Positions 19,461 to 34,561 of a stretch of 35,827 nucleotides of DNA are shown piece after piece. Made by a program: the position numbers and the translations under genes. The notes beneath the pieces are model-generated. The model saw only the letters and a list, made by a program, of their open reading frames with translations. It searched no databases and was not told where the DNA came from. The DNA comes from Alphaproteobacteria bacterium (GTDB taxonomy: Bacteria; Pseudomonadota; Alphaproteobacteria; ATCC43930; Allostellaceae), in assembly GCA_020852355.1 (NCBI GenBank), contig JADZBA010000354.1:1-35827 (forward strand), read 5' to 3'. Position 1 is the first letter of the stretch. Each line of letters opens with the position of its first letter.

Positions 19461-20336
19461 GTGCTCGGCTATCTGGTCCTGAGCGGAATCACGACGGGGG
19501 CGCTCTACGCCCTCGTCGCGCTCGGCGTGGTCATCGTCTTCAAGGCGACGGGGACGGTGAACTTCGCCCATGGCGACCTGTTCATGATCGGCGGCTTCCT
19601 CGCCTTCACCTTCCATGTCCTCATGGGGCTGCCCTACCTGGTCGCCCTCGCCCTGGCGGTGGCGGCGGGCTTCGGCATCGGCATCCTCACCGACCGCATC
19701 GCCTTCCGCCCGCTGATGAGGGCCAATCTCGTCAGCCTGGTGCTCGCCACCGTCGGCTTCTCGTTCATCCTGAAGGGCATCGCGCGGAGCGTCTGGGGCG
19801 GCAAGGCGGACCTCTTCGCCTTCCCGCCGCTGATCAGCCCCGACCCGATCTTCCTCGGCCCCCTCATCATCATCCCGCAGCAACTCGTTGCGATCGGCGG
19901 GGCGGCGCTGGTGATGGGCGCCTTCGCCGCCTTCTTCCGCCTCACCCGCATCGGCAAGATGATGCAGGCGACGGCCGACAACCCGAAGGCGGCGACCCTG
20001 GTCGGCATCCGCACCGACCGCGTCTACATGTACGCCTTCGGCGTCGGCGCGGCGGTCGCCGCCTCGGCCGCCGTGCTGATGGCGCCCCTGACGCTGCTCT
20101 ATCCCGACATCGGGTTCGTGCTCTTCATCAAGGGCTTCGCCGCGGCCGTCCTGGGCGGGCTCTCCAGCCTGCCGGGCGCCGTCGTCGGCGGTCTCGTCGT
20201 CGGTGTCGTCGAGGCGCTGGCGGGCGGCTACATCAACTCGAGCTTCCTCGAGGTCTCGGCCTTCGTCGTCATCATGGTGGTGCTGGTGCTGCGCCCGACC
20301 GGCCTGTTCGGCGCGACCGCGGTCCGTCGGGTGTGA
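19461..20336 (+). CDS. livH: Branched-chain amino acid-type ABC transporter permease LivH
   Basis: Inner-membrane permease, 291 aa, about eight hydrophobic helices. LivH marks: LSGITTGALYALVALGVVIVFKATGTVNFAHGDLFMIGGFLAF at the N-terminus, TRIGKMMQATADNPKAATLVGI in the cytoplasmic coupling loop (residues about 158-180) and GFAAAVLGGLSSLPGAVVGGLVVGVVE near the C-terminus. GTG start at 19461, 22 bp after the binding-protein stop, with no clear Shine-Dalgarno, so it probably depends on coupling. Its stop overlaps the start of livM. Confidence 0.94.
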   Translation: MLGYLVLSGITTGALYALVALGVVIVFKATGTVNFAHGDLFMIGGFLAFTFHVLMGLPYLVALALAVAAGFGIGILTDRIAFRPLMRANLVSLVLATVGFSFILKGIARSVWGGKADLFAFPPLISPDPIFLGPLIIIPQQLVAIGGAALVMGAFAAFFRLTRIGKMMQATADNPKAATLVGIRTDRVYMYAFGVGAAVAASAAVLMAPLTLLYPDIGFVLFIKGFAAAVLGGLSSLPGAVVGGLVVGVVEALAGGYINSSFLEVSAFVVIMVVLVLRPTGLFGATAVRRV

Positions 20337-21331
20337 TGTCCAGGCTGCTCGGACGGCGCACCCTGCTGGCCCTGGGCGTCGCCGCGCTGGCGGCGGTGCC
20401 GACCTTCGCCAACCCCTACGTCGTCTTCGTCGGCAACCAGCTCATGCTCTACGTCATCCTGGCGGTCGGGCTGAACATCCTGGTCGGCTATGCCGGGCAG
20501 CTCGCCTTCGCCAACGCCGCGATGTTCGGCATCGGCGCCTACGGCACCGGGCTGCTGCAGGTGCATTTCGGCGTGCCCTACTATGCGGCGGCACCGGCGG
20601 GCGCGCTGCTGGCAATGCTGATCGGGCTGGCCATGGCCTGGCCGGCGCTGCGCCTCTCCGGCCTCTACCTGGCGCTCGCCACGCTCGCCTTCGCGCAGTT
20701 CACGCTCTGGGTGTTCCTGCACTGGGAATCGGTCACCTTCGGGGCCGGCGGCTTCAAGGTGCCGCCGCCCTCCTTCGCGCCGCTGCCGCTGCCGTCCAAC
20801 CTCGGCATCTACTATCTCTCGCTGCTGGCCATGGCGGCGCTGGTGGCGATCGCCTGGAACGTCGTGCGCTCGCGCATCGGCCGCGCCTTCGTCGCCATCC
20901 GCGACGGCGAGGTCGCCGCCCAGGCGCTCGGCATCGACCTGTTCCGCTACAAGGCGATCGCCTTCGGCATGAGCGGGCTCTATGCCGGCATCGCCGGCGC
21001 GCTGCACTCCGCCCTCCTCAACTATGTCTCGCCGGAGGGCTTCGACCTGTTCCAGATGGTGCTGCACAAGGCGATGATCGTGGTCGGCGGCCTCGGCTCC
21101 CTGGCCGGCTCGGTGGTCGGAGCGACGACGCTGACCCTCATCCTTGAGGCGCTGCGCGAGTTCAAGAGCACGCAGGAGATCGCCTTCGGCGCGCTGCTGC
21201 TGGTCTTCGTCATCTTCATGCCCGACGGCATCGTCGCCGCCCTGAAGCAGCGCCTCCAGGGCTGGGAGGAGCCCTTGCGCCGGGTGCGCGGACGCCCGGG
21301 CGCGGCGGCCGGGGCCGAGGCGCGCCCGTGA
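20336..21331 (+). CDS. livM: Branched-chain amino acid-type ABC transporter permease LivM
   Basis: Second permease of the importer, 331 aa from the ATG at 20336 (TGATG overlap with livH); the GTG three bases earlier is an equal alternative. Family blocks: YVILAVGLNILVGYAGQLAFANAAMFGIGAYGTGLL (residues about 40-75), RIGRAFVAIRDGEVAAQALGIDLFRYKAIAFGMSG (coupling loop, about 180-215) and HKAMIVVGGLGSLAGSVVGA. The basic tail (VRGRPGAAAGAEARP) is not fused to an ATPase, unlike in some homologues. Its stop overlaps the livG start by 4 bp. Confidence 0.94.
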   Translation: MSRLLGRRTLLALGVAALAAVPTFANPYVVFVGNQLMLYVILAVGLNILVGYAGQLAFANAAMFGIGAYGTGLLQVHFGVPYYAAAPAGALLAMLIGLAMAWPALRLSGLYLALATLAFAQFTLWVFLHWESVTFGAGGFKVPPPSFAPLPLPSNLGIYYLSLLAMAALVAIAWNVVRSRIGRAFVAIRDGEVAAQALGIDLFRYKAIAFGMSGLYAGIAGALHSALLNYVSPEGFDLFQMVLHKAMIVVGGLGSLAGSVVGATTLTLILEALREFKSTQEIAFGALLLVFVIFMPDGIVAALKQRLQGWEEPLRRVRGRPGAAAGAEARP

Positions 21332-22090
21332 CCATGCTGGAGGCGCGCGGCCTGGGAATCGGGTTCGGCGGCGTCAGGGCGCTGGACGACGTCTCCTTCG
21401 CGGTCCGCGAGGGCGAGATCCGCGGCATCATCGGCCCGAACGGGGCCGGCAAGACGACGCTGCTGAACGTGATCTGCGGCCTGGTGCGGCCCGACGCCGG
21501 CGAGGTCCTGCTGGCGGGCGAACCGATCACCGGCCTCAAGCCCAACGTCATCGCCGGGCGCGGCCTGGGGCGCACCTTCCAGACCTCGCAGCTCTTCCGC
21601 GGCATGACGGTGCTGGAGAACCTGATGACCGGCCTGCACGGCGAGACCCGCGCCGGCCTCTTCGCCGCCGCCTTCGGCGGCCGCGCCATGCTGGCCGAGG
21701 AAGAGCGGGCCCGCGAGAAGGCGTGGAAGGCGCTGGAGTTCGTCGGCATGGAGCGGTTCTGGGATCGCCCGGCGCAGGCCCTCTCCTTCGGGCAGCAGCG
21801 CGTCGTGGAGATCGCCCGCACGCTCATCAGCGAGCCCAAGGTGGTGCTGCTCGACGAGCCGGCCGTCGGCCTGTCGCTCAACCGCCTCGCCGAGCTCGAC
21901 CGCCTGCTGCGCCGCATCCGCGACGAGCGCGGCGTCACCCTGGTGATGATCGAGCACGTCATCCGCCTGGTGATGGGTGTGTGCGACCGCGTCACCGTGC
22001 TCCAGGGCGGCGTCGTCATCGCCGAGGGCACGCCCGACGCGGTCATCGAGGACGCGCGGGTGATCGAGGCCTATCTCGGACGCCGGGTCG

Positions 22091-22113
<23 letters not shown>
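21328..22113 (+). CDS. livG: Branched-chain amino acid-type ABC transporter ATP-binding protein LivG
   Basis: Cytosolic ATPase, 261 aa. Walker A GPNGAGKTT (residues about 37-45), a Q-loop within GRTFQTSQLF, signature LSFGQQRVVEIARTL, Walker B VVLLDEPAVGLS and switch histidine in IEHVI. The long insertion after the Q-loop (GLFAAAFGGRAMLAEEERARE) is typical of LivG rather than LivF. GTG start overlapping the livM stop (GTGA); an ATG follows two codons later. Its 3' end overlaps livF by 23 bp. Confidence 0.94.
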
Positions 22114-22795
<682 letters not shown>

Positions 22796-22823
22796 GGGAC
22801 AGAACCGGCCGTGCCGCCTCGCC

Positions 22824-22851
22824 CCCTCTCCGCCCATTGGGGCGGAGAGGG
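22824..22851. terminator. Perfect 12-bp hairpin downstream of livF, probable terminator/dispersed repeat
   Basis: CCCTCTCCGCCC (22824-22835), loop ATTG, GGGCGGAGAGGG (22840-22851): a perfect 12-bp stem 29 bp after the livF stop. There is no T-tract, so factor-independent termination would rely on the stem alone. It is the first of three nested or serial hairpins between two converging operons. Confidence 0.6.
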
Positions 22852-22855
22852 TCGG

Positions 22856-22963
22856 GGTGAGGTGGGAATTCGCCGGCGGTCGCCATCGGGCGCCCGCCCA
22901 CCTCACCCTCCCATCGCTGCTCGATGGGCCCCTCCCTCTCCGCCCTGAAGGGCAGGAGAGGGG
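22856..22963. repeat. Hairpin-rich intergenic repeat between converging operons
   Basis: GGTGAGGTGGG (22856-22866) pairs with CCCACCTCACC (22897-22907) around a 30-base loop. A second hairpin pairs CCCTCTCCGCCCT (22934-22946) with AGGGCAGGAGAGGG (about 22949-22962). Together with 22824-22851 this forms a mosaic of related palindromes, as in dispersed alphaproteobacterial intergenic repeats. It lies 11 bp before the stop of the leftward molybdoenzyme gene, so it may terminate both operons. Confidence 0.55.
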
Positions 22964-22973
22964 AAAGCTCTCG

Positions 22974-25049
22974 TCACTCCTCGATCGCCGCCGCCCGCAC
23001 CCACACCGCGGTGTCGTGGAACGCCACGCCGCCCGCCGGCGGCACCGGGTCGGCGCCGACGAGCTGATTGATGCCGAAGCCCTCGGGGAAGGCGGCGTTG
23101 GGCCAGATGCCCTCGACCACCACGGTGCCCGGCCGCAGGCCGGCGAAGCGGCGGACCTCCAGGGTCGCCGCGCCACGGCGGTTGCCGAGCGTGGCCGCGG
23201 CGCCGTCGGCGAGCCCCAGCGCGTCGGCGTCGTCGGGATGCATCAGGGCGGTCGGCCGGCCCGCGCGGCCGCGGCTGGCCGGCGTCTCGGTGAAGCTCGA
23301 ATTGAGGAAGCTGCGCGCCGGCGGCGTCACCAGACGGAACGGATGCTCCGGGCTCGCGGCCTCGATCAGCATCGCCTGGTCCGGCAGGGACGGCATCAGC
23401 GCGTGGGCAGGACCGAGAGCCGACCAGTCCGGCCGGAAGCGGAAGCGGCCGTCGGGCTGCGGGAAGCCGTCGAGGAAATGCGCGCGCTCGAAGGGCAGCG
23501 CCATGTCGACCCAGCCCTGCGCCGCGGCCGCCTCGAAGCCGCCGAGGCCCGAGCCCCGCAGCGAATGGTCGATCAACTCGCGCGCCGTCATCGCGAAGCC
23601 CGGATGGTCGGCGCCCAGCCGCTGCGCCAGGGCCTGGGTCACCGCGTGGTTGGGGCGCGCCTCGCCGCAGGGCTCGATCACCTGCGGGCCGATCGTCAGA
23701 TGGGTCTGGCCGTAGGCGAGGTACATGTCGTCGGCTTCGAGGAAGGTGGTGGCCGGCAGCACGACGTCGGCCAGCTTCGCGGTCGGCGTCGGGAACTGCT
23801 CGTGCACGCAGACGAACAGGTCATCGCGCATGAGGCCGCGGCGCACCGTGCGGCTGTCCGGGGCGACGCTGGCGGAGTTGGCGTTCTGGATGATCATCGC
23901 CGTCACCGGCGGACCGCCGAGCAGCGCTTCCTCCTCGCCGCACAGGACCGCGCCGATGCGCGACTGGTCGAGCGCCCGCACGTCGGGGCGGAAGCGGTCG
24001 CTGCCCTGGGCCACCGCGAGGTCCAGCCGCTCGCTCCACCAGTTGATGAAGAAGGCGCCGCCGCCGCGGTGCTGCCACGCCCCGGTGACCGCCGGCAGGC
24101 AGGAGACGGCGTGCATCGCCGCGCTGCCGTTGCGCGAGCGGGTGAAGCCGAAGCCCAGGCGCAGGAAGCTGCGCGGCGTCGTGCCGTAGAGCCGGGCGAG
24201 CGCCACGATCTCCGCCTCGGGGACGCCGGTGACGGCCGACGCCCAGGCCGGCGTCCGGGTCGCGATATGGGCGGCGACGCCGTCGTCGAAATCGGTGTGG
24301 CGGGCGAGGTAGTCGCGGTCGGCCAGGTCCTCGGCCAGCATGACGTTCATCATCGCGACGGCCAGCGCCGCGTCGGTGCCGGGCCGCACGATGACGGCCA
24401 CGTCCGCCTGCTCGACGGTCGGCGTGCGATAGCAGTCGACCACCACCAGCTTCGCCCCGCGCTCCTTGCGGGCGCGGGTGATGTGGGCCATCGCGTTGAC
24501 CTGGGTCGAGACGGGATTGCCGCCCCACATGACGACGAGGTCGGATTCCGCCATCTCGCGCGGATCGACGCCGCGCAGCGCGCCGACGCCGGCCCGCCAG
24601 CCCATCTCGGCCGGCATCATGCAGATGGTCGAGCGCTGGCGCGAATAGCCCATGACGTTGCGCAGCCGCTCCAGCCCGTAGCGGCCGATGAGGCCCATGG
24701 TGCCGCCGGAATGGTAGGGCCACACCGCCTCGGGGCCGTGGCGCCGGGCGGAGCGGATGAAGGCGTCGGCGACGAGGTCGAGCGCGTCGTCCCAGCCGAT
24801 CGGTTCGAACCGCCCCTCGCCCTTGGCGCCGACGCGGCGCAGCGGCCGGGTGAGGCGATCGGGATGGTGCACGCGCTCGGCGTAGCGCGCGACCTTGGCG
24901 CAGACGACGCCCGCCGTGTAGCCGTTGTCCTCGGCCCCGCGGATGCGGCCGATGCGCGAGGGCGACAGGCGCTCGACGACGAGCGCGCAGCCGCTCGGGC
25001 AGTCGTGCGGGCAGGCGGAGCGCAGGCGCAGGATACCTTCGTCGGGCAT
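22974..25049 (-). CDS. Molybdopterin-dependent oxidoreductase with N-terminal [4Fe-4S] site (DMSO reductase family)
   Basis: Catalytic subunit of 691 aa. The N-terminal iron-sulfur motif is ACPHDCPSGC (cysteines near residues 13, 17 and 21) with the fourth cysteine in GVVCAKVARY. Then come the family domains: LTRPLRRVGAKGEGRFEPIGWDDALDLVA, the molybdopterin-guanine-dinucleotide-binding core with WGGNPVSTQ and VVVDCYRTPT, ADVVLPATTFLEADDMY, and the C-terminal beta-barrel (LMHPDDADALGL, NQLVGAD). No twin-arginine signal, so cytoplasmic. No ferredoxin-like, FAD or membrane-anchor subunit is encoded nearby, so its electron partner is unknown. Last gene of the operon, ATG 7 bp after the SDR stop (AGGTG site). 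The substrate is not predictable. Confidence 0.9.
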   Translation of the reverse strand: MPDEGILRLRSACPHDCPSGCALVVERLSPSRIGRIRGAEDNGYTAGVVCAKVARYAERVHHPDRLTRPLRRVGAKGEGRFEPIGWDDALDLVADAFIRSARRHGPEAVWPYHSGGTMGLIGRYGLERLRNVMGYSRQRSTICMMPAEMGWRAGVGALRGVDPREMAESDLVVMWGGNPVSTQVNAMAHITRARKERGAKLVVVDCYRTPTVEQADVAVIVRPGTDAALAVAMMNVMLAEDLADRDYLARHTDFDDGVAAHIATRTPAWASAVTGVPEAEIVALARLYGTTPRSFLRLGFGFTRSRNGSAAMHAVSCLPAVTGAWQHRGGGAFFINWWSERLDLAVAQGSDRFRPDVRALDQSRIGAVLCGEEEALLGGPPVTAMIIQNANSASVAPDSRTVRRGLMRDDLFVCVHEQFPTPTAKLADVVLPATTFLEADDMYLAYGQTHLTIGPQVIEPCGEARPNHAVTQALAQRLGADHPGFAMTARELIDHSLRGSGLGGFEAAAAQGWVDMALPFERAHFLDGFPQPDGRFRFRPDWSALGPAHALMPSLPDQAMLIEAASPEHPFRLVTPPARSFLNSSFTETPASRGRAGRPTALMHPDDADALGLADGAAATLGNRRGAATLEVRRFAGLRPGTVVVEGIWPNAAFPEGFGINQLVGADPVPPAGGVAFHDTAVWVRAAAIEE

Positions 25050-25056
25050 GGGGCAC

Positions 25057-25833
25057 CTATCCGATCACGTAGCCGCCGTCGGCGATCACCGTCTCGCCGG
25101 TGACGTAGGATGCCGCATCCGACGCCAGGAACACCACCAGCTTGGCGACTTCCTCCGCACTGCCCCAGCGGCCGAGCGGCACGCGGTCGAGCCCGCGGTC
25201 GCCGCTCGGCCCGGCGACGACATGCCGGGTCATGCGGGTGATGGAGCGGCCCGGCGCCACGCATACCGCGCGCACGCCGTGCGGCCCCCATTCGACGGCG
25301 GCCGCCCGGGTGTACTGGGCGATCGCCGCCTTGGCCGCGGCGTAGATGCCCCTGCCCTCGCCGCCGCAGAAGGCGGTCTGCGAGCCGATGTTGACGACCA
25401 CGCCCCGGCCGCGCGCGACCATGCCGCGCGCCAGGAGCGGCGTCAGCACCATGACGCCGACGAGGTCGACGTCGATCAGCCCGCGGATCTCCGCCGCCGA
25501 GGTCTCCAGCAGCGGCTTGGTCAGCAGCCGGCCGGCATTGTTGACCAGCACGTCGACATCGCCCGCCGCCGCCGCCAGCCGCTCGACCGAGGCGACGTCG
25601 GCCTGGTCGTAGACGATGGCCGTCGCCCGTGGGCCGATCGCTGCCGCCTTCGCCGTCACGGCGTCCGCCTCCTGGTCGGCCAGGACCAGCGTCGCGCCAT
25701 GCGCGGCGAACAGGTCGGCGATCGCCGCCCCGAACCCGTTCGCCGCCCCGGTCACCAGCACGCGGCGGCCGGCGAAGTCGAGGTCGGCGGTGAGCGGGCT
25801 CACGCGCGGCGGCGGTGCGAGGGCCGTGGTCAT
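25057..25833 (-). CDS. SDR-family NAD(P)-dependent oxidoreductase
   Basis: Classical short-chain dehydrogenase/reductase, 258 aa, with an intact active site: TGAANGFG (residues 28-35), NNAG (98-101), S151 and YxxxK (Y164, K168). D52 at the end of beta-2 (LVLADQE) points to NAD rather than NADP. The helix-4 asparagine is D123, a common variant. An N-terminal Ala/Pro-rich leader of about 20 residues precedes the fold. The ATG at 25831-25833 has only a weak ribosome site. It lies 88 bp downstream of the epimerase gene, with a degenerate hairpin between, and 7 bp before the molybdoenzyme gene. Probably oxidises a hydroxyl intermediate in the pathway of this operon. Confidence 0.9.
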   Translation of the reverse strand: MTTALAPPPRVSPLTADLDFAGRRVLVTGAANGFGAAIADLFAAHGATLVLADQEADAVTAKAAAIGPRATAIVYDQADVASVERLAAAAGDVDVLVNNAGRLLTKPLLETSAAEIRGLIDVDLVGVMVLTPLLARGMVARGRGVVVNIGSQTAFCGGEGRGIYAAAKAAIAQYTRAAAVEWGPHGVRAVCVAPGRSITRMTRHVVAGPSGDRGLDRVPLGRWGSAEEVAKLVVFLASDAASYVTGETVIADGGYVIG

Positions 25834-25883
25834 TGCGGGCGAGCGTCGGCGTCGGGCCGCAGGGTTGTCAAGTTGGGGGCGCG

Positions 25884-25912
25884 CCCTCTTCCGCCCCGAT
25901 GGCGCGGAGAGG
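25884..25912. repeat. Degenerate copy of the CCCTCTCCGCCC hairpin repeat
   Basis: CCCTCTTCCGCCCCGATG followed by GCGCGGAGAGG forms an imperfect stem and matches the hairpin at 22824-22851 with a few changes. It lies inside the operon, between the epimerase and SDR genes, where it may act as an attenuator or mRNA-processing site; that is inference. Confidence 0.45.
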
Positions 25913-25921
25913 ACGAAGGAT

Positions 25922-26839
25922 TCAACCTGCCATCCACGCCGCATACCGCCGCGCGCCCTCGGCCAGGTCCACCTTCGGGGACCAGCCGAGGTCGCGGCGG
26001 GCGGCGGCGACGTCGAGGGGGCCGACGGCGTAGGTGCCCCAGATGGGCAGGCCGGCGGCGGGCTCGATGCGCACGCCGGGAACAGTGGCGGCGACCGTCG
26101 CGACCGCCTCCTCCGTCGTATAGGCGACGCCGCTCGACAGGTTGTAGGCGAGTTCGGGGATTCGCTCGGCGTCCAGCGCGGCGAGGATCGCGTCGACGAC
26201 GTCGTCGACGAAGACGTACTGGCGCAGCCGCGCGCGATCGCACAGGGCCGGCGTCGGCCGGCCGGCGCGGGCGTTCTCCAGCAGCGTGCGCACGAAGCAG
26301 CTCGTGGTGCGGCGCGGGCCGTAGGCCGAGGCGACGCGGAAGGCGACGCCGTCGAGCCCGTATTCCGCGCGGTAGGCGCGCAGGATCGCCTCGCCCGCGA
26401 CCTTGGTGGCGCCGTACAGGCCGGTCGGGCGCAGCGGCCGGTCCTCGGCGACGGGGCCGAGGTCCGGCAGGTCGCCATAGGCCATGATCGAGGAGAACCA
26501 GACGACACGGCGGACCTTCGCAAGCCGCGCCGCCTCGAAGACGTGGAGCGTGCCGTCGACGTTGGTTTCGACGATGCGGGTCGGATGGTCGCGGGCGATC
26601 ATCGGCCCGGAGATGCCGCCGGCATGGACGATGGCGCCGACGCCGTGGCCGAGGATCGCCTCGTAGAGCCGGTGCGGCTCGCGCAGGTCGGCGACGAGCA
26701 GCGGGAAGGGCAGCGCGCCGGCCGCGGGCACCACGTCCATGCCGACGACCGGCCGGCCCATGGCGGCCAGGCGCTGGGCGGCGGCCTGCCCGAGGAAGCC
26801 GGTGGCGCCGGTGACGAGGACGGCGTCGCCCCCGATCAT
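25922..26839 (-). CDS. NAD-dependent epimerase/dehydratase family protein (extended SDR)
   Basis: Extended SDR of 305 aa, UDP-glucose-4-epimerase-like. Rossmann motif TGATGFLG (residues 10-17), acidic D35 for NAD(H), SSIMAYG (116-122) and YxxxK (Y142, K146 in GLYGATKVAGE). The substrate half carries RTTSCFVRTLLENARAG and QYVFVDDVVDAIL. The ATG overlaps the HyuB stop by 4 bp, so it is translated with the hydantoinase pair. No glycosyltransferases or nucleotide-sugar genes are nearby, so the substrate may be a non-sugar hydroxy acid as in some family members. That is inference from context. Confidence 0.9.
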   Translation of the reverse strand: MIGGDAVLVTGATGFLGQAAAQRLAAMGRPVVGMDVVPAAGALPFPLLVADLREPHRLYEAILGHGVGAIVHAGGISGPMIARDHPTRIVETNVDGTLHVFEAARLAKVRRVVWFSSIMAYGDLPDLGPVAEDRPLRPTGLYGATKVAGEAILRAYRAEYGLDGVAFRVASAYGPRRTTSCFVRTLLENARAGRPTPALCDRARLRQYVFVDDVVDAILAALDAERIPELAYNLSSGVAYTTEEAVATVAATVPGVRIEPAAGLPIWGTYAVGPLDVAAARRDLGWSPKVDLAEGARRYAAWMAG

Positions 26840-28893
26840 TCCGCGGCCTCGCGGCGCAGCGCCGAGGCCGACAGCAGGCCGCGGGCGAGCAGGCGGACAT
26901 GGACGCGCGCGCCGAGGGCCGCCTGGATGACCCGGCGGCCGAGCGCATCGAGCGGCAGCGTGCCGGCGCCGACGGCGGGATCGAGCACGACCCAGGCGCG
27001 CAGCGGTGCTGCGGTCGGCGACATCAGCTCGACGATGTCGTCGGCGCGCAGGCCGGCATCGCGCGCGCTCGCCGGGTTGATGCGGCAGATCCGCCGCCGG
27101 CTGACGCTGCCCGCCTCGTAGCAGTCGGCGCCCTCGACCACCGCCAGCGTGACGCGCGCGGCGCGGATCGCGGCGCGCGCCGCCTCGCTCGCCGGGACAT
27201 CGATGCCGCCGTCGGCGGCGAGCACGAGGCCGTAGTCGCCGTGCGCCGATTCCGGCGAGACGTAGCCCTGCTCCAGGTCGTCGAGGACGCGCGCCAGCGG
27301 CCGCTCCAGCGGGTCGCCGTACCCGCCGCCGCCGGCCGAGCGGATGACGACCGCGTCGCCGGCCCGCAGCGGGTGGCCGGCGACCTTGCCCGGCATGTCG
27401 AACGCCTCGGCGACGCCGTCGCGCTCGACATGGCTCGAGACCGGCGCGCCGGCGAAGCCGCCGAGCACCCCGAAGGCCGGCAGCACCGCCCCGTCCGACA
27501 GCAGCGAGTAGGCGGCGCGCGGCGACGTCAGCCGCAGGCGCCGGCGCATCGAGAGGCCGCCGCGCGTCGTGCCCGGGCCGCCGGAATCGGTCGCCTGCAG
27601 CGAGAAGTCGATCATCAGCGGCATGCGCGTCTCCAGCACCTCGGTCGGCTGGACCGTGGTGAGGTCGCCCCAGTCGATGGTCGCCATGGCGCTCGGCCCG
27701 TCACCCTCCAGGAAGGCGCCGCTGCCCCCGGCCGACCATTCGTAGTGCACCCATTCCTTGCCGGTGCGCGGATGGATGCCGCCGATCATGTTGTGGAAGG
27801 AGGTGCGGCAGAGATCGCCCGCCACCAGCCTGGGGGCCACCTGGGCGAGCGCCCCCACCATCACCGCCAGCACGCGCTTGCGAATCTCACCGTGCGAGCC
27901 GGCCGGCGCGGGCGCCTGCACGTTGACGATGGTGCCGGGCGGCGCCACCACCTCGATCGGCCGCAGCGAGCCCTGGTTCAGCGGCGCGTCGGGATCGAAG
28001 ATCGACTTGACCGCGATCAGCACGCCGCCGGCCGAGACGGCGAGCGTCGAGTTGACCGGGACCGGTACCTGCGGCGAGGCGCCGGTCATGTCGGCGACCA
28101 TGCCGTCGCCGGCGATGGTCAGCTTCATCGGCAGCAGGAGCGGCTCCAAGCGCCCGTCCTGGAAGGTCTCCAGGTAGTCCTCGAAATAGTATTCACCATC
28201 GGGCAGCGCCGCGATCTTCGCGCGCATGCGCGCCTCGGAGCGGTCCATGTTCTGCGCGATGGCCGCCAGCAGCGTCTCGACGCCGTAGCGCCGGCACAGC
28301 TCATGAATGCGCCGCTCGGCGGTGCGGCAGGCCGACAGGCTGGCGTGGAAGTCGCCGAGCCGCTCGTCGGGCACGCGCATGTTGGCGAGCAGCAGGTCGA
28401 TGGCGGCCTGGTTGATGCGCCCGCCCTCGACGATCTTGATCGGCGGGATGCGCACGCCCTCCTGATAGATCTCCGTCGCCTTGCCCGACATGCTGCCCGG
28501 CACCATGCCGCCGACGTCGGCCCAGTGCTCGCGCACCGCGGGGAAGAAGATCAGCCTGCCGTCGGCGAACACCGGATAGATGACGGTGACGTCGTTGAGG
28601 TGGGTGCCGCCGCGATAGGGATCGTTGGTCAGGATGACGTCGCCCGGCGCCAGGGTGGCGCCATGCTGCTCCATCGCCGAGCGCACCGACCAGGGCAGCG
28701 GCACGACGTGCGAGCCGATGTCCTCGGACTGCGCCACGACGTTGCTGGCGGGATCGAACAGGCCGCAGGAGAAGTCCTTGGCCTCGTAGATCGCGACCGA
28801 GCGGGCGGTGCGGAACACGGTCGCGCGCATCTCGCGCACCACCGAGATCAGGCCCTCGGTCAGGACCTCCAGCGTGATGGGGTCGAGGATCAT
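26836..28893 (-). CDS. hyuB: Hydantoinase B/oxoprolinase family protein
   Basis: Beta subunit of an ATP-dependent cyclic-amide hydrolase or carboxylase, 685 aa. The conserved core begins MILDPITLEVLTEGLISVVREMRATVFRTARSVAIYEAKDFSCGLFD and includes VILTNDPYRGGTHLNDVTVIYPVF (residues about 85-108) and SGGPGTTRGGLSMRR. Relative to the usual 520-600 residues it has a C-terminal extension of about 90 residues (RRRICRINPASARDAGL, IVELMSPTAAPLRAWVVLD) seen in some subfamilies. Starts within the HyuA stop (ATGA) and ends within the epimerase start. HyuAB pairs include N-methylhydantoinases, 5-oxoprolinases, caprolactamase, and acetone or acetophenone carboxylases; which one cannot be told here. Confidence 0.93.
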   Translation of the reverse strand: MILDPITLEVLTEGLISVVREMRATVFRTARSVAIYEAKDFSCGLFDPASNVVAQSEDIGSHVVPLPWSVRSAMEQHGATLAPGDVILTNDPYRGGTHLNDVTVIYPVFADGRLIFFPAVREHWADVGGMVPGSMSGKATEIYQEGVRIPPIKIVEGGRINQAAIDLLLANMRVPDERLGDFHASLSACRTAERRIHELCRRYGVETLLAAIAQNMDRSEARMRAKIAALPDGEYYFEDYLETFQDGRLEPLLLPMKLTIAGDGMVADMTGASPQVPVPVNSTLAVSAGGVLIAVKSIFDPDAPLNQGSLRPIEVVAPPGTIVNVQAPAPAGSHGEIRKRVLAVMVGALAQVAPRLVAGDLCRTSFHNMIGGIHPRTGKEWVHYEWSAGGSGAFLEGDGPSAMATIDWGDLTTVQPTEVLETRMPLMIDFSLQATDSGGPGTTRGGLSMRRRLRLTSPRAAYSLLSDGAVLPAFGVLGGFAGAPVSSHVERDGVAEAFDMPGKVAGHPLRAGDAVVIRSAGGGGYGDPLERPLARVLDDLEQGYVSPESAHGDYGLVLAADGGIDVPASEAARAAIRAARVTLAVVEGADCYEAGSVSRRRICRINPASARDAGLRADDIVELMSPTAAPLRAWVVLDPAVGAGTLPLDALGRRVIQAALGARVHVRLLARGLLSASALRREAAE

Positions 28894-30917
28894 GACCGCT
28901 CCTTCCGCTCCAGCACGAGGCAGCCGAACCGTTCCAGGCGCGCGGCATAGCCCGGCGGGACGACGGTGGTCGAGCCGCTCTCCTCGACGATCGCCGGGCC
29001 GTCGAACGCCTCGTCCACCGGCAGCGCGTCGCGGCGATAGATCGCGGCCTCCACGGGCCGCGCGTCGAAGGCGACCGCACGGGTGCCGATGCGCGCCGCC
29101 GCGAGGCTGCGCCCGGCGCCGTCGACCGGTACGAGCTGCGGCTTGCGGCCGATGCCGTAGGCCGAGAGGCGGAAATTGACGATCTCCGTCGGGTCGTCGG
29201 GTGCGTGGGTGTAGCGGTCCTCGTAGACGCGGCGGAAGGCGGCGTCGATCGCCTCATGGTCGGTCGGCGCCAGTGCCACGGGAACCGACAGCTCGAACGC
29301 CTGGCCAACATAGCGCATGTCGAGCCGCGCCTCGAAGCGCATGGCATCGGCAGCGAAGCCGGCGCCGGCGAGATCGGCTTCCGCCTCGGCGCGCAGGTCG
29401 GCCAGCAGCTCGGCGATGGCGGCGGTCGGCATGGTGCGCGTCACCGTCACCCGGGTGCGCACGAAGTCGCGGCGCACGTCGGCGACCAGCAGCCCCAGGG
29501 CGGAGAAGTTGCCCGGAATGGGCGGCACCACGACCGCACGCATGCCGAGCTCCTCGGCGACGAGGGCGGCGTGCAGCGGGCCGGCGCCGCCATAGGCGAA
29601 GAGCGCGAAGTCGCGCGGGTCGCGCCCGCGCATGATCGAGATCTCCTTGATGGCGCCGGTCATCCTGGCGACAGCCACTTTGACGATGCCGTCCGCCATC
29701 ACCAGCGGATCGAGGCCGAGGCGCCCGGCGACGCGGTCCACCGCCGCCCGCGCCGCGGCACCGTCGAGCCGCAGCGAGCCGCCGAGCGGCGCATCGGTGC
29801 CGAGCCGGCCGAGCACGACATTGGCGTCCGTCACCGTCGCCTCGGTGCCGCCGCGCCCGTAGCTCGCAGGCCCCGGCGCCGCACCGGCCGAGCGCGGGCC
29901 GACCGCGAGGAAGCCGCCGTCGCCGACCGCGGCGATGCTGCCGCCGCCGGCGCCGATCGAGTTGATGTCGATCTGCATCATGCGGTTGGGCAGCGTGCCC
30001 ACCGCACCGTCGCTGGTCATGGCGAAGGCCCCGCCCTCGATCAGCGAGACATCGGTGCTGGTGCCGCCCATGTCGTAGGTGATGACCCGCTCGAAGCCGA
30101 CCGTGCGGCCGACGAAGGTCGCGGCGATGACGCCCGCCGCCGGGCCCGACAGCATGGAGCCGACCGGCAGCCGCTCGATCGCCTCCGAGGGCAGCGTGCC
30201 ACCGTTGGACGCCATGATGGCGACCGGCCGGTCGTAGCCGCGCTCGGCCAGCCGGCCGCGCAGCGAGGCGAGATAGCGGCGCACGCGCGGAGCGACGTAG
30301 GCGTTGAGCGCGGTGGTGGCGAAGCGCTCGTACTCGCGATACTCCGGCAGCACCTCGGCCGAGGTCGAGACGAAGACCCCGGGCAGGCGCGCCTCGATCG
30401 CCGCCCGCGTGCGACGCTCATGGTCGGGGTTGGCGTAGGCGTGGAGGTAGCACACGGCGACCGCCTCGATCCCCTCCGCCTCCAGCGTCGCGACCGCGGC
30501 GTCGAGGTCGGCCGCGTCCAGCGGTTCGGCGACCGAGCCGTCCTGGCGCATGCGCTCGCCGATCTCGTGGATGCGCCGGCGCGGCACCAGCGGGTCCGGC
30601 CGCGCAGTCTTGATGTTGTAGAGGACGGTGCGGTTGCCGCGCCCGACGATCAGCACGTCGCGATGGCCGCGCGTGGTCAGCACTGCCATGCGCGCGCCGT
30701 CGCGCTCCAGCGCGGTGTTGGTCGCGACCGTCGTGCCGTGCGCCAGCTTCGCCACCTGACCCAGGTCGACGCCGAGGGCGGCGATGCCGTCCATCATACC
30801 CTGGGAATGGTCGTGGGGCGTCGACGACGCCTTGACCACGCGCAGGCTGCCGTCCGCCTCGTCGTAGAGCACGAGGTCGGTGAAGGTGCCGCCGACGTCG
30901 ACGCCGATCCACTGCAT
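28890..30917 (-). CDS. hyuA: Hydantoinase A/oxoprolinase family protein
   Basis: ATP-binding alpha subunit of the HyuAB complex, 675 aa, normal length. Actin-like ATPase marks: GVDVGGTFTDLVLYDE (residues 5-20), HGTTVATNTALERDGARMAVLTTRGHRDVL, the MSGPAAGV-type LSGPAAGVIAA near 255, and YDMGGTSTDVSL near 280. The C-terminal swivel domain ends with FDGPAIVEESGSTTVVPPGY. The gene has GGAG nine bases before its ATG and follows the crotonase gene by 9 bp. The nearby molybdoenzyme, SDR and crotonase favour a degradative cyclic amide or ketone pathway over glutathione-cycle oxoprolinase. Confidence 0.94.
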   Translation of the reverse strand: MQWIGVDVGGTFTDLVLYDEADGSLRVVKASSTPHDHSQGMMDGIAALGVDLGQVAKLAHGTTVATNTALERDGARMAVLTTRGHRDVLIVGRGNRTVLYNIKTARPDPLVPRRRIHEIGERMRQDGSVAEPLDAADLDAAVATLEAEGIEAVAVCYLHAYANPDHERRTRAAIEARLPGVFVSTSAEVLPEYREYERFATTALNAYVAPRVRRYLASLRGRLAERGYDRPVAIMASNGGTLPSEAIERLPVGSMLSGPAAGVIAATFVGRTVGFERVITYDMGGTSTDVSLIEGGAFAMTSDGAVGTLPNRMMQIDINSIGAGGGSIAAVGDGGFLAVGPRSAGAAPGPASYGRGGTEATVTDANVVLGRLGTDAPLGGSLRLDGAAARAAVDRVAGRLGLDPLVMADGIVKVAVARMTGAIKEISIMRGRDPRDFALFAYGGAGPLHAALVAEELGMRAVVVPPIPGNFSALGLLVADVRRDFVRTRVTVTRTMPTAAIAELLADLRAEAEADLAGAGFAADAMRFEARLDMRYVGQAFELSVPVALAPTDHEAIDAAFRRVYEDRYTHAPDDPTEIVNFRLSAYGIGRKPQLVPVDGAGRSLAAARIGTRAVAFDARPVEAAIYRRDALPVDEAFDGPAIVEESGSTTVVPPGYAARLERFGCLVLERKERS

Positions 30918-30926
30918 GCGCTGCTC

Positions 30927-31715
30927 CTATCGCCCGCGGAAGACCGGCGGACGCTTCTCGACGAAGGCGCGGGCCGCCTCCCGGTAGTCCTCGCTGTCGA
31001 TCGCCCGGTCGACGATGGCGGCGATCGCCTGGGCATGGCGCTCGGCGTCGCCTTCGGCGAGGAGCTGCAGCACTTCCTTGCTCCCGGCGAGCGACAGGGG
31101 CGCGTTGGCGATCAGCTCGCCCGCCAGCCGCCGCGCACCGGCGACCGCGCCGTCCTCGGCGACCTGGTCGAGCAGGCCGATGCGCATGGCCTCGGCGGCG
31201 CCGAAGCGCCGGGCCGAGTAGAGCACGAGCTTGGCGTTGGACAGGCCGACGGCCGACAGCAGCAGCCGGCTCTCCAGCAGGCTGTAGACGATGCCGAGCC
31301 GGGCCGCGGGGATTCCCATCTGCGTCGTCGCGTCGCCGACCCGGAAGTCGCAGCCGAGCGCCAGGCCGCAGCCGCCGCCGACCCCGAAGCCGGAGACGGC
31401 CGCGATCACCGGCTTGGGGCAGTCGAGCATCGCATGCACGGCGCCCTCGGCCACCTCCTCGTAGTGCCGCGACTGCTCCGCCGTCGCCCGCACCATGGCG
31501 AACTCGGAGATGTCCGCGCCGGCGCAGAAATGGCCGCCCGCACCGGTGACGACGATCGCGCGCACTGCGGGATCGCCGCCCAGGGTCGCGGTCCACTGGC
31601 CAATCTCGCCCCACATGGCGAGCGTCACCGCATTGCGCTTGTGCGGCCGGTTCAGGGTCACCAGGGCGACACCGTCGGCGTCGACCTCGACGATCACGTC
31701 CTTCGCTTCCGCCAC
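30927..31715 (-). CDS. Enoyl-CoA hydratase/isomerase (crotonase) superfamily protein lacking both classical glutamates
   Basis: Crotonase fold, 262 aa. The oxyanion-hole segments are intact: HFCAGADISEF (residues 62-72, backbone NH near A66) and GFGVGGGCGLAL (109-120). The two catalytic glutamates of enoyl-CoA hydratase are absent: the E144 equivalent is G117 (GGGCG instead of GGGCE), and the E164 equivalent, twenty residues later, is A137 (IPAARLG instead of xPExxLG). It is therefore unlikely to hydrate enoyl-CoA by the standard route; a hydrolase, isomerase, decarboxylase or C-C lyase role fits better. GTG start with a GAGGG site. First gene of the six-gene leftward operon, and the only CoA-ester-type enzyme in it, which hints that a CoA-bound intermediate is involved. 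Confidence 0.9.
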   Translation of the reverse strand: MAEAKDVIVEVDADGVALVTLNRPHKRNAVTLAMWGEIGQWTATLGGDPAVRAIVVTGAGGHFCAGADISEFAMVRATAEQSRHYEEVAEGAVHAMLDCPKPVIAAVSGFGVGGGCGLALGCDFRVGDATTQMGIPAARLGIVYSLLESRLLLSAVGLSNAKLVLYSARRFGAAEAMRIGLLDQVAEDGAVAGARRLAGELIANAPLSLAGSKEVLQLLAEGDAERHAQAIAAIVDRAIDSEDYREAARAFVEKRPPVFRGR

Positions 31716-31856: not shown

Positions 31857-32738
31857 ATGCCCCACGTGACCACCGACGACGGCGTGAAGCTCTACTACGA
31901 GGAAGGCGGCAGCGGGACGCCGGTCGTCTTCGTCCACGAGTTCGCCGGCGACTGCCGGAGCTGGGAGCCGCAGATGCGCGCCTTCGCCCGGCGCTACCGC
32001 TGCATCGCCTTCAACGCGCGCGGCTTCCCGCCCTCCGACGTGCCGACCAGCCCGGCCAGCTATTCCCAGGCCCGCGCCCGCGACGACATCCGCGCCGTGC
32101 TGGACGGCCTCGGCATCGCCAAGGCGCACATCGTCGGCCTCTCCATGGGCGGCTTCGCGACGCTGCATTTCGGCCTGGCATATCCCGAACGGGCGCTGTC
32201 GCTGCTGGTCGGCGGCTGCGGCTACGGGGCCGAGCGCGACCAGCGCGAGATCTTCCGCAGCGAGGCGGAGAAGATCGCCGGCCGGCTGCGCAACGAGGGG
32301 ATGGCGAAGTTCTCCGAGACCTACGCGCTGGGGCCGACGCGCGTGCAGTTCCAGAACAAGGACCCGCGCGGCTGGCGCGAGTTCGCCGCGCAGCTCGCCG
32401 AGCATTCCTCGGAAGGCTCCGCCCTGACCCAGCTCGGCGTGCAGCGCGAGCGGCCTTCGATCTTCGATCTCGAGGACCAGATGCGCCGGCTGACGGTGCC
32501 GACATTGATCATCACCGGCGACGAGGACCATCCCTGCCTCGTCCCCAACATCTTCATGAAGCGGACCATCCCGTCGGCGGCGCTGCAGGTGCTGCCCAAC
32601 GCCGGGCACGCGATCAACATCGAGGATCCGGACCGCTTCAACGACGCGCTGGCGGACTTCCTGGCCCAGGTCGACGCCGGCCGCTGGCCGACGCGCGACC
32701 CGCGCTCGGTCAGCGCCAGCATCACCGGCATCCGCTGA
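31857..32738 (+). CDS. Alpha/beta-fold hydrolase
   Basis: Cytosolic alpha/beta hydrolase of 293 aa with the triad visible: nucleophile S96 in GLSMGG, acid D222 or D224 in TGDEDHPCL, and H251 in NAGHAINIE. The oxyanion loop is VHEFAGDCRSWEPQM (residues 26-40). A cap insertion spans about 130-200. The ATG at 31857 is chosen because GGGAGG lies at correct spacing; an ATG two codons earlier is too close to it. Divergent from the crotonase gene (about 140 bp gap) and 26 bp before the CphA-like gene. Resembles carboxylesterases and 3-oxoadipate enol-lactonase-like enzymes; the substrate is unknown. Confidence 0.9.
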   Translation: MPHVTTDDGVKLYYEEGGSGTPVVFVHEFAGDCRSWEPQMRAFARRYRCIAFNARGFPPSDVPTSPASYSQARARDDIRAVLDGLGIAKAHIVGLSMGGFATLHFGLAYPERALSLLVGGCGYGAERDQREIFRSEAEKIAGRLRNEGMAKFSETYALGPTRVQFQNKDPRGWREFAAQLAEHSSEGSALTQLGVQRERPSIFDLEDQMRRLTVPTLIITGDEDHPCLVPNIFMKRTIPSAALQVLPNAGHAINIEDPDRFNDALADFLAQVDAGRWPTRDPRSVSASITGIR

Positions 32739-32764: not shown

Positions 32765-34561
32765 ATGCGCATGATTCCGCCGCCTCCCGAGCGATTGCGT
32801 GCCTACCCCGGCCCCAGCCTGTTCGCGGCCGGGCGATGCGTCCTGCTGCACGTCGCCGGGATCGACGGGGTGGACCTGCCGGAAGACTGGGCCGCCGCGC
32901 TGCGCCGGCATCCCGCCCTGGCGGAAGCCGCGTCCCCACCCGCCGGTGCCGCAGCGGCGGTCGCATGGCTCGCGCAGGAATTGCAGCGCGCGCTCGGCCA
33001 TCCCGTCCCCGACGGTACCGGCGGCGGCACGGCGGCGGACCACGTCGTCGTGCCGGTGTGGGACGCCGAGGTCGGCGCGGCGGCGGCGCGGACCGCCTTC
33101 GCCATCGTCGCGGCCCCGGGCAGCCAAAGGGGCGAGGTCGTCGCTCATCTCAACCGCTTCTTCGCCACGGCCAACGTCATCGACTACAGCGAGAGCGAGG
33201 CGCGGGTGATCCGGGCGGCCGAGCGTCGCGGCATTCCGTGGAACCGTCTGGTTCCCGGCCACCGCCTGCTGCGGCTGGGCCAGGGCGCGTGGCAGATGCA
33301 CGTGCAGCACACCTTCACGCCGGCGACCAGCCGCATCGCGACCTACATCTCGACGCACAAGGACATCGCGGCGGCCCTGCTCCGGGCACAAGGCCTGCCG
33401 GTACCGGCGGGTCGCCGCGTCGGCTCGGCCGACGCGGCGGTCGCCGCCGCCGCGGCGATCGGCTATCCGGTGGTGGTCAAGCCGACGGCGACCGACTACG
33501 GCACCGCCGTCTCGCTGCATCTGCGCGACGAGGCCGACGTGCGGCGGGCCTATGCGGCGGCGGCGCGCCACGGCCCGGTCCTGGTCGAGCGCCAGCTGCC
33601 GGGCGACCACACCCGCCTCGTCGTCATCGACGGGCGCTTCATCTCGGCGGTGCGCCAGGACCCGGCGCAGGTGACCGGCGACGGCCGGCGCTCGGTCGCC
33701 GGGCTGATCGACGCGGTGAACGCGGAGCGCACCGACGACGTGTCCGCGAGCTTCAAGAAGATCGCGATCGACGCGGAGGCGACGCTGCTGCTGGAGCGCC
33801 AGGGGCTGGGGCTCGCGAGCGTGCCGGAAGCGGGCCGCCGGGTGGTGCTGCGCCACACCTCGAACACCTCGCGCGGCGGCACCGCGCGCAACGCGACGGC
33901 GCTGGTGCATCCCGACAACGCGCGGCTGGCCGAGCGGGCCGCGGCGGTGGTCGGGCTCGACGTCGCCGGCATCGACCTCATCACGCCGGACATCACGCGG
34001 TCGTTCCGCGAGGTCGGCGGCGGCATCTGCGAGATCAACGCCACTCCCGGCTTCTTCATGCGCGAGCCGGGCTATCTCATCGAGGACGCATTCCTCGACG
34101 GGCACTTCCGTGCGGGCGACCGCGGCCTCGTCCCCATCGTCGCCCTGCTGGCCGAGCCGGGCGAGGGCGCCGCCGCGGCCGAGGAGATGGCGCGCGGCCT
34201 CCGCGCCCGCGTCCGCGGCGTCGCGGTGGTCGCGCCGTGCGGCGCCCGGATCGACGCCCGCATCGACGACTGGCCGATCGCGGAGAGGACGATCGCGGAC
34301 GCCACGGCCACGGTGCTGAACGATCCCGCGACGCGGGCGGCGGTCGTCTGCCTCGACCGCCGCACGATCGCCGAGGATGGGATCGGCTTCGCACGCTGCG
34401 CCGTCGCGCTGATGCCGCCGGACGCGGCGGGCGCGGCGGCGGCGCTGCTCGCCGCCCACGCGGACGAGCGGATCGACGCGGCGGATCGGGCGCGCGTCGC
34501 CGCGGCGCTGGATGCGGTGGCCGCGACGGCGTCGCGCGCCGCACCCGCCCGCCGCCGTTAG
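32765..34561 (+). CDS. Cyanophycin-synthetase-like ATP-grasp protein with degenerate, truncated Mur-ligase region
   Basis: 598 aa, versus about 870-900 for CphA1. Residues 90-190 match the CphA N-domain (GIPWNRLVPGHRLLRLGQGAWQMHVQHTFTPATSRIA). Residues 197-450 are an ATP-grasp ligase: VVVKP (K239), VLVERQLPGDHTRLVVIDG, VTGDGRRSV, AGIDLITPDI (D404), and CEINATPGF (E423, N425, probable Mg ligands). From 455 on, VPIVALLAEPGEGAAA aligns with the CphA Mur-ligase P-loop VAVTGTNGKTT but has lost the GKTT residues; TIAEDGIGFARCAVAL resembles GILRRGLGFDRCD. The rest of the Mur domain is absent. It probably joins an amino acid to a carboxylate via acyl phosphate but cannot carry out CphA's second ligation. 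ATG at 32765; an in-frame ATG lies two codons later. Confidence 0.85.
   Translation: MRMIPPPPERLRAYPGPSLFAAGRCVLLHVAGIDGVDLPEDWAAALRRHPALAEAASPPAGAAAAVAWLAQELQRALGHPVPDGTGGGTAADHVVVPVWDAEVGAAAARTAFAIVAAPGSQRGEVVAHLNRFFATANVIDYSESEARVIRAAERRGIPWNRLVPGHRLLRLGQGAWQMHVQHTFTPATSRIATYISTHKDIAAALLRAQGLPVPAGRRVGSADAAVAAAAAIGYPVVVKPTATDYGTAVSLHLRDEADVRRAYAAAARHGPVLVERQLPGDHTRLVVIDGRFISAVRQDPAQVTGDGRRSVAGLIDAVNAERTDDVSASFKKIAIDAEATLLLERQGLGLASVPEAGRRVVLRHTSNTSRGGTARNATALVHPDNARLAERAAAVVGLDVAGIDLITPDITRSFREVGGGICEINATPGFFMREPGYLIEDAFLDGHFRAGDRGLVPIVALLAEPGEGAAAAEEMARGLRARVRGVAVVAPCGARIDARIDDWPIAERTIADATATVLNDPATRAAVVCLDRRTIAEDGIGFARCAVALMPPDAAGAAAALLAAHADERIDAADRARVAAALDAVAATASRAAPARRR

Follow-up and report, generated by a model that had tools for sequence, protein, structure and literature searches.

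A conserved HyuAB gene cluster with a Liv-type importer, a candidate module for the catabolism of cyclic amide-type compounds

What compound would be handled by a hydantoinase-type enzyme pair, HyuA and HyuB, encoded in a compact operon that runs tail to tail against a complete Liv-type importer? The arrangement is found in a stretch of 35,827 nucleotides (hereafter, the window), which makes up the entire contig G000:C354 in a high-GC alphaproteobacterial assembly whose nearest genomes are those of Stella. The original prediction, made from the sequence of the window, described six tightly packed leftward genes facing a full Liv importer, and the open reading frames, the protein families and the convergence were all verified. 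The gene set is a conserved module, not a chance association, and we lean towards reading it as a catabolic module for a compound with a lactam-type ring (cyclic amide, imide or cyclic urea), or for a precursor converted into one. The features are as follows; the six Hyu operon genes and five Liv genes had been listed before, and the divergent alpha/beta-hydrolase had been overlooked.

30927-31715, minus strand: crotonase-fold protein without both catalytic Glu of enoyl-coenzyme A (CoA) hydratase
28890-30917, minus strand: HyuA, ATP-binding alpha subunit, 675 amino acids (aa), with DVGGTFTD, DMGGTSTD and GAAPGP motifs
26836-28893, minus strand: HyuB, beta subunit, 685 aa (PF02538, E 1.3e-167; aligned to CapB)
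26836-27180, minus strand: C-terminal double-psi beta-barrel (DPBB) domain of HyuB, outside the Pfam family coverage
25922-26839, minus strand: extended short-chain dehydrogenase/reductase (SDR) with NAD epimerase/dehydratase fold, nucleotide motif and YxxxK intact (the epimerase)
25057-25833, minus strand: SDR dehydrogenase, 258 aa, TGxxxGxG and YxxxK intact
22974-25049, minus strand: single-subunit dimethyl sulfoxide (DMSO)-reductase-family oxidoreductase with molybdenum-bis(pyranopterin guanine dinucleotide) (Mo-bisPGD) and a [4Fe-4S] domain, of an uncharacterised branch by domain matches and tree (the molybdoenzyme)
22796-22973, no strand: intergenic dyad, probable bidirectional terminator, 12-bp arms 22824-22835/22840-22851
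18281-19438, plus strand: Liv-type periplasmic substrate-binding protein (SBP; PF13458, Pfam E 1.8e-59)
19461-20336, plus strand: LivH-type permease (PF02653; LivH family 146 bits)
20333-21331, plus strand: LivM-type permease (PF02653)
21328-22113, plus strand: LivG-type ATPase (PF00005 and PF12399)
22091-22795, plus strand: LivF-type ATPase (PF00005)
31857-32738, plus strand: PcaD-like alpha/beta-hydrolase, divergent, with orthologs in the cluster in seven other loci

Conservation of the gene set

A genome-wide scan with HyuB gave 68 loci, 26 of them with a HyuB of ~65% identity or more. A third Stella locus (L114) was added, and the resulting 27 ortholog loci and the window, 28 in total, were compared. 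Neighbour genes were scored by tblastn with the window proteins and by gene calling trained for each locus, and the counts out of 28 include the window wherever the gene is present there. The same HyuAB was found in Stella, Reyranella, Enhydrobacter, Acetobacteraceae, Hyphomicrobiales, a few Betaproteobacteria and Rokubacteria. Recurring beside it are the crotonase, the SDR, often the epimerase, orthologous Liv genes, and also GntR, alpha/beta-hydrolase and CaiB genes. The crotonase gene lies upstream of HyuA in those ortholog loci that have upstream sequence, and three Betaproteobacteria carry a more distant crotonase (32-37% identity) with the same residues missing. The SDR is linked in 17 of the 28 loci, orthologous Liv genes in 15, the epimerase in 13, a GntR/FCD regulator in 11, the alpha/beta-hydrolase in eight, a type III CoA-transferase in seven (the window is not among them) and the molybdoenzyme in five. 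SBP orthologs (56-72%) adjoin the same HyuAB in 14 loci, and the CoA-transferase of the relatives is nearest to dicarboxylate enzymes.

The original prediction had regarded the six enzymes as a unit and had proposed gene order in other genomes as the test of it. The core does recur, with the molybdoenzyme and the epimerase as optional members, and the content is kept while order and orientation vary. Liv and Hyu genes are divergent in Stella and Reyranella, codirectional in Siccirubricoccus, Caldovatus and locus L042, and convergent in the window; those of L031 (Betaproteobacteria) likewise stand tail to tail. Orthologs of HyuB are scarce, occurring in 3 of 241 alphaproteobacterial genomes, and the distribution of the cluster is therefore patchy.

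Within the window, the spacings of the Hyu operon from the crotonase to the molybdoenzyme gene are +9, -4, -4, +88 and +7 bp. The hairpin noted in the original prediction for the 88-bp gap folds no better than chance (z -0.98, with 31 of 200 shuffles equally good). The strong dyad lies instead between the operons, where the 178-bp gap separating the LivF and molybdoenzyme genes contains an inverted repeat with perfect 12-bp arms at 22824-22851 (fold z -5.0, and z -6.3 for the whole dyad). Such a structure would be expected between convergent operons, and this dyad is a probable bidirectional terminator. Searches found no sigma-70 promoters and no T-tract terminators, the latter not at the 22796-22973 dyad either.

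Other genes were observed around the clusters. In the window, the alpha/beta-hydrolase gene is adjoined by a gene for an ATP-grasp protein (32795-34561) that resembles the synthetase portion of cyanophycin synthetase (at 343 bits, well under the cut-off). An allantoinase PuuE-like gene lies directly downstream of the cluster in L026 (14495-15388), and the same was seen in L027 and L029. In Reyranella (L021:14467-18353), a sulfonate/taurine-type ATP-binding cassette (ABC) importer and a TauD-like dioxygenase are encoded between the regulator and the alpha/beta-hydrolase. Such an importer is also found in L030, L031 and L037, there adjoining a muconate-cycloisomerase-like gene.

The origin of the window copy was considered separately. 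Over the rpoB region, the identity of the assembly to three Stella genomes is 87-88%, and among those three genomes it is 89-92%. The window proteins show 50-73% identity to their Stella orthologs, compared with mostly 75-95% among the Stella species. The 3.1-kb contig C6 of the same assembly (L134:764-3149) carries SDR, GntR and alpha/beta-hydrolase genes whose DNA is 83-86% identical to Stella, and it represents part of another, Stella-like cluster copy; no second ortholog-type HyuB or SBP beyond the window was found in the assembly. Because the window is divergent from Stella while a Stella-like fragment exists in the same assembly, the window copy either was gained in addition to a vertical copy, most of which the assembly lacks, or is located on a contaminant contig. 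The contamination estimate of the assembly is 4.57%, and the tetranucleotide composition of the window fits the assembly (0.945), which is compatible with either origin. The conservation argument is independent of the origin of this contig.

The HyuAB pair and its reaction

The motifs of window HyuA, DVGGTFTD at position 7, DMGGTSTD at 282 and GAAPGP at 345, and the Asp-His-Asp-His metal ligands of HyuB (D40, H98, D101 and H123) are essentially invariant in the orthologs with complete sequence, with the third motif as GxxPGP. Their counterparts in the ATP and metal sites of caprolactamase have been probed by mutation (PMC8453981). Two-subunit A-B clusters encode hydrolases, while three to five subunits are found in acetone and acetophenone carboxylases (PMC5214803). 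HyuAB has the layout of the hydantoinase/oxoprolinase branch, consisting of A and B subunits only in the gene order A-B, and no gamma, epsilon or second alpha subunit was recognised beside it in the window or the ortholog loci. The best scores of HyuA were 463 bits for N-methylhydantoinase, 412 for CapA and 296 for ApcC, and the NCBIfam models gave 523.8 bits for CapA and 311 for ApcC. Overall, the sequence scores place N-methylhydantoinase and caprolactamase ahead of the carboxylases. Because the ATP and metal residues are intact, the layout is of two subunits and the scores are nearer to the hydrolases, ring opening by hydrolysis of a cyclic amide-type compound is the favoured prediction over ketone carboxylation. 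The ring opening proposed originally for HyuAB is supported by this composition and these residues, which are those of the ring-opening branch.

Several observations weigh against catabolism of a cyclic amide-type compound. Both subunits miss by far the equivalog cut-off of the caprolactamase NCBIfam models (1000 bits per subunit), HyuA with 523.8 and HyuB with 308.9 bits, and Tyr136 of caprolactamase, the likely acid/base, aligns to Met135 in window HyuB. From this replacement and the two missed cut-offs, the window HyuAB is judged not to be a caprolactamase. With 685 aa, HyuB has the length of an acetophenone carboxylase subunit as compared with ~570 aa for the hydrolases, which is a guide and not a strict rule, and the length results from the added DPBB domain. 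Furthermore, no gene in the cluster names a substrate, and the molybdoenzyme is linked in five loci alone.

Anaerobic ethylbenzene catabolism offers another model, in which hydroxylation by a DMSO-reductase-family molybdoenzyme and the action of an SDR produce a ketone that HyuAB carboxylates before CoA-transfer and cleavage. Ethylbenzene degradation likewise proceeds from a Mo hydroxylase through an SDR to a Hyu-family carboxylase (see also PMC5214803), the 685 aa of HyuB are close to the 684 of ApcD, and the Glu-less crotonase could cleave the beta-keto product. However, this model is unlikely, as the ortholog loci have no recognised second HyuA, gamma or epsilon subunit, HyuA is nearer to the hydrolases, and the molybdoenzyme is not an ethylbenzene dehydrogenase (88 bits where that model requires 2000), has Cys at the ligand site, and is without beta/gamma subunits and export signal. 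We also regard it as improbable that HyuAB opens a lactone-like or activated ester ring, or a cell-made 5-oxoproline-type metabolite, and not an imported N-heterocycle. The PcaD-like hydrolase and the muconate-cycloisomerase-like gene near the cluster in three relatives would agree with such a substrate, but cyclic amides are the substrates of those two-subunit members that have been characterised (PMC8453981), and the dedicated importer is conserved. Opening of an imported cyclic amide-type ring is kept as the preferred reading.

HyuB residues ~575-672 fall outside the Pfam family. All of the 25 aligned orthologs weakly matched the DPBB family PF01568 (molybdopterin-dinucleotide-binding; best E 5.6e-8) and 19 matched CDC48_N, and a profile search with the domain against the PDB led to DPBB proteins. 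The AlphaFold model of the domain (predicted local distance difference test score, pLDDT, 87) matched designed DPBBs and Cdc48/VCP N-domains in Foldseek with E 8e-7. A profile of the domain detected 49 proteins, including HyuB-type proteins from almost every locus in the series L021-L066, plus L068 and L087; one of the 49 is the L058 molybdoenzyme. In the window's own genome, just one other HyuB carries the domain despite ~30 HyuA-like loci. The HyuB relatives listed in a plasmid search have ≤~42% identity, and their matches stop before the domain. As judged by these comparisons, the C-terminal DPBB domain marks a HyuB subfamily, and our guess is that it serves for docking.

The assembly of the window has ~31 HyuA-like matches in 5.7 Mb, all but one with ≤50% identity to window HyuA. 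A second HyuA-HyuB pair was observed on contig G000:C345 (L131:1678-7818), with a gene for a BisC-type S/N-oxide reductase (1002 bits) 8 bp downstream, a divergent TauD-like dioxygenase gene, and, upstream, the terminal part of what may be a hydantoin-racemase-like gene. Biotin or biotin-sulfoxide, a candidate substrate prompted by this BisC-type gene, was dropped, since the window molybdoenzyme is not BisC-like.

The partner proteins of HyuAB

The counterparts of E144 and E164 of rat enoyl-CoA hydratase are Gly and Ala in the window crotonase. Both catalytic Glu are absent in 20 of 20 aligned crotonases, in which the first is Gly (Leu or Ala in some) and the second is Ala. Because both glutamates are missing, this protein is predicted not to be a standard enoyl-CoA hydratase but to perform some other chemistry, and its original label, crotonase, should not be read as hydratase function. 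The Liv importer has the complete composition of a Liv/hydrophobic amino acid transporter (HAAT) ABC system, with one SBP, two permeases and two ATPases. In the alignment of the SBP with LIVBP, Glu226 is replaced by Ser and Thr102 by Val. Because Glu226, the residue that binds the amino group (ammonium) in LIVBP, is replaced by Ser, the ligand of the SBP is probably not an alpha-amino acid. Sequence searches of the PDB with the SBP, epimerase and crotonase gave general family matches and indicated no substrate.

The molybdoenzyme has the domains PF00384, PF01568 and PF04879 of the DMSO reductase superfamily (molybdopterin, dinucleotide-binding and Fe4S4), and four Fe-S cysteines with no export signal seen ahead of them. 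Cys143 is at the metal-ligand position, and Met144 replaces the His of formate dehydrogenase, so that the enzyme is not classed with the latter. It misses every NCBIfam cut-off; the ethylbenzene dehydrogenase model gave 88.3 of 2000 bits, and the enzyme is encoded by a single gene and not as three subunits. In the maximum-likelihood tree, the five linked copies group together in a single supported clade (96/97) of nine rows, the other four being unlinked molybdoenzymes from Reyranella and Acetobacteraceae genomes. This clade is separate from the general molybdoenzyme paralog carried elsewhere in Stella genomes. The convergent LivF neighbour is shared by the window and L025-L027, in which the gene order is otherwise rearranged.

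Different molybdoenzymes were found with related HyuAB. Next to the HyuAB operon of L041 (Alcaligenaceae) is a member of another branch, and L058 has a transhydroxylase-like molybdoenzyme 5 kb from HyuAB. Among the ~48 fetched loci with DPBB-HyuB, eight have a molybdoenzyme family member in reach, against ~1.5 expected from 11 PF00384 matches per 5.74 Mb. The linkage to the DPBB-HyuAB subfamily above chance is graded as suggestive, because the eight loci represent about four independent events. These few independent cases suggest that NAD(P)H-coupled redox chemistry is attached to the subfamily.

Could the molybdoenzyme be an unrelated neighbour, with a module made of crotonase-HyuA-HyuB-(epimerase)-SDR and the importer? 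This is possible though doubtful, and it would be compatible with the cyclic amide reading minus one step. The linkage is limited to five of the 28 loci, three Stella genomes have the Hyu cluster without a linked copy, and the family also occurs as a general paralog amid other neighbours. On the other hand, the linked copies are all in the single supported clade, a gap of 7 bp separates the window copy from the SDR, both the window and L025-L027 have LivF as a tail-to-tail neighbour despite the rearranged order, and other DMSO-reductase branches are near the related HyuAB loci L041, L058 and L059.

As to the gene contents of single loci, L041:2029-5439 encodes a single protein of 1137 aa that fuses a [4Fe-4S]/molybdopterin oxidoreductase with an FAD/NAD and 2Fe-2S reductase. 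In L058:4090-21308 (Burkholderiales), HyuAB-SDR occurs with UbiD-like, homocitrate-synthase-like and pyrogallol-transhydroxylase-like genes. L083:387-16928 (Dethiobacter) has UbiD, UbiX-like, tripartite ATP-independent periplasmic (TRAP) transporter, molybdoenzyme, HyuA, HyuB and full Liv importer genes, all codirectional.

Proposed pathway and comparison with known systems

From the observed gene content, conservation, HyuAB residues, two-subunit layout, Glu-less crotonase and extra HyuB domain, we infer the catalytic steps, direction and substrate of the following pathway for a cyclic amide-type compound. The Liv-type ABC importer would bring the compound into the cell, and the SDR, the extended SDR and, in the window copy, the cytoplasmic molybdoenzyme would create or expose the ring carbonyl by oxygen-independent two-electron steps. 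HyuA may then phosphorylate this carbonyl with ATP as the imidate, and the metal site of HyuB may hydrolyse it, converting the ring to a carboxylate. The acid could be handled by the alpha/beta-hydrolase, the type III CoA-transferase (in the seven relatives) and the non-hydratase crotonase-fold protein, and in the relatives the GntR/FCD regulator would control expression. Import, ring opening and redox processing, as originally proposed, is a fair reading given the conserved module, with the molybdoenzyme as an optional part.

A more specific version, which we hold as a rather speculative idea, is a hitherto undescribed oxygen-independent pathway in which the cytoplasmic DMSO-reductase-family molybdoenzyme prepares the ring, the DPBB-tailed HyuAB opens it with ATP, and the DPBB domain provides a docking site for a partner enzyme or for a substrate bound to CoA or a carrier. 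On this view, the HyuAB subfamily would have recruited several molybdoenzyme branches that are unrelated to one another.

Searches of the open-access literature and of annotation models gave no matching description of this gene combination, and the cluster appears to be of an ordinary catabolic kind, conserved and without a described counterpart. HyuAB genes, of which a genome can have many, are mostly annotated just as hydantoinase/oxoprolinase. The present subfamily can be recognised by the DPBB domain and the conserved importer, SDR and altered crotonase, so that a defined group of proteins is available for purification, among them an SBP suitable for ligand screening. The identity of the ligand would reveal the role of the whole HyuAB branch, and whether molybdoenzymes serve in it.

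Among known systems, the molybdoenzyme resembles the Mo/W enzymes of the formate dehydrogenase/acetylene hydratase type in its [4Fe-4S] and bis-PGD domains and the position of the Cys ligand, but differs from formate dehydrogenase at Met144. By description, the cluster is similar to the anaerobic indoleacetate (iaa) pathway of Aromatoleum, which comprises genes for a lactam-making molybdoenzyme, a Hyu-type gamma-lactamase, a CoA-transferase, a GntR regulator and an SBP. The iaa molybdoenzyme belongs to the xanthine oxidase family, unlike the DMSO-reductase-family enzyme of the window. The window and the conserved clusters, in which not every neighbour gene is annotated, have no recognised gene for a mutase or an acyl-CoA dehydrogenase. 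The iaa gamma-lactamase is mentioned in PMC5214803. Acetophenone carboxylase ApcA-E is of the same superfamily with a similar HyuB length, but the window is without its second alpha, gamma and epsilon subunits, and the scores are weaker. The best solved relatives of the window HyuAB are N-methylhydantoinase and the CapAB caprolactamase/OplAB oxoprolinase of Pseudomonas. CapAB and OplAB share with it the A and B subunits, the ATP motifs and the Asp-His-Asp-His metal site; their neighbour genes are unlike those of the window, and CapB (581 aa) does not have the C-terminal DPBB domain that the window HyuB carries.

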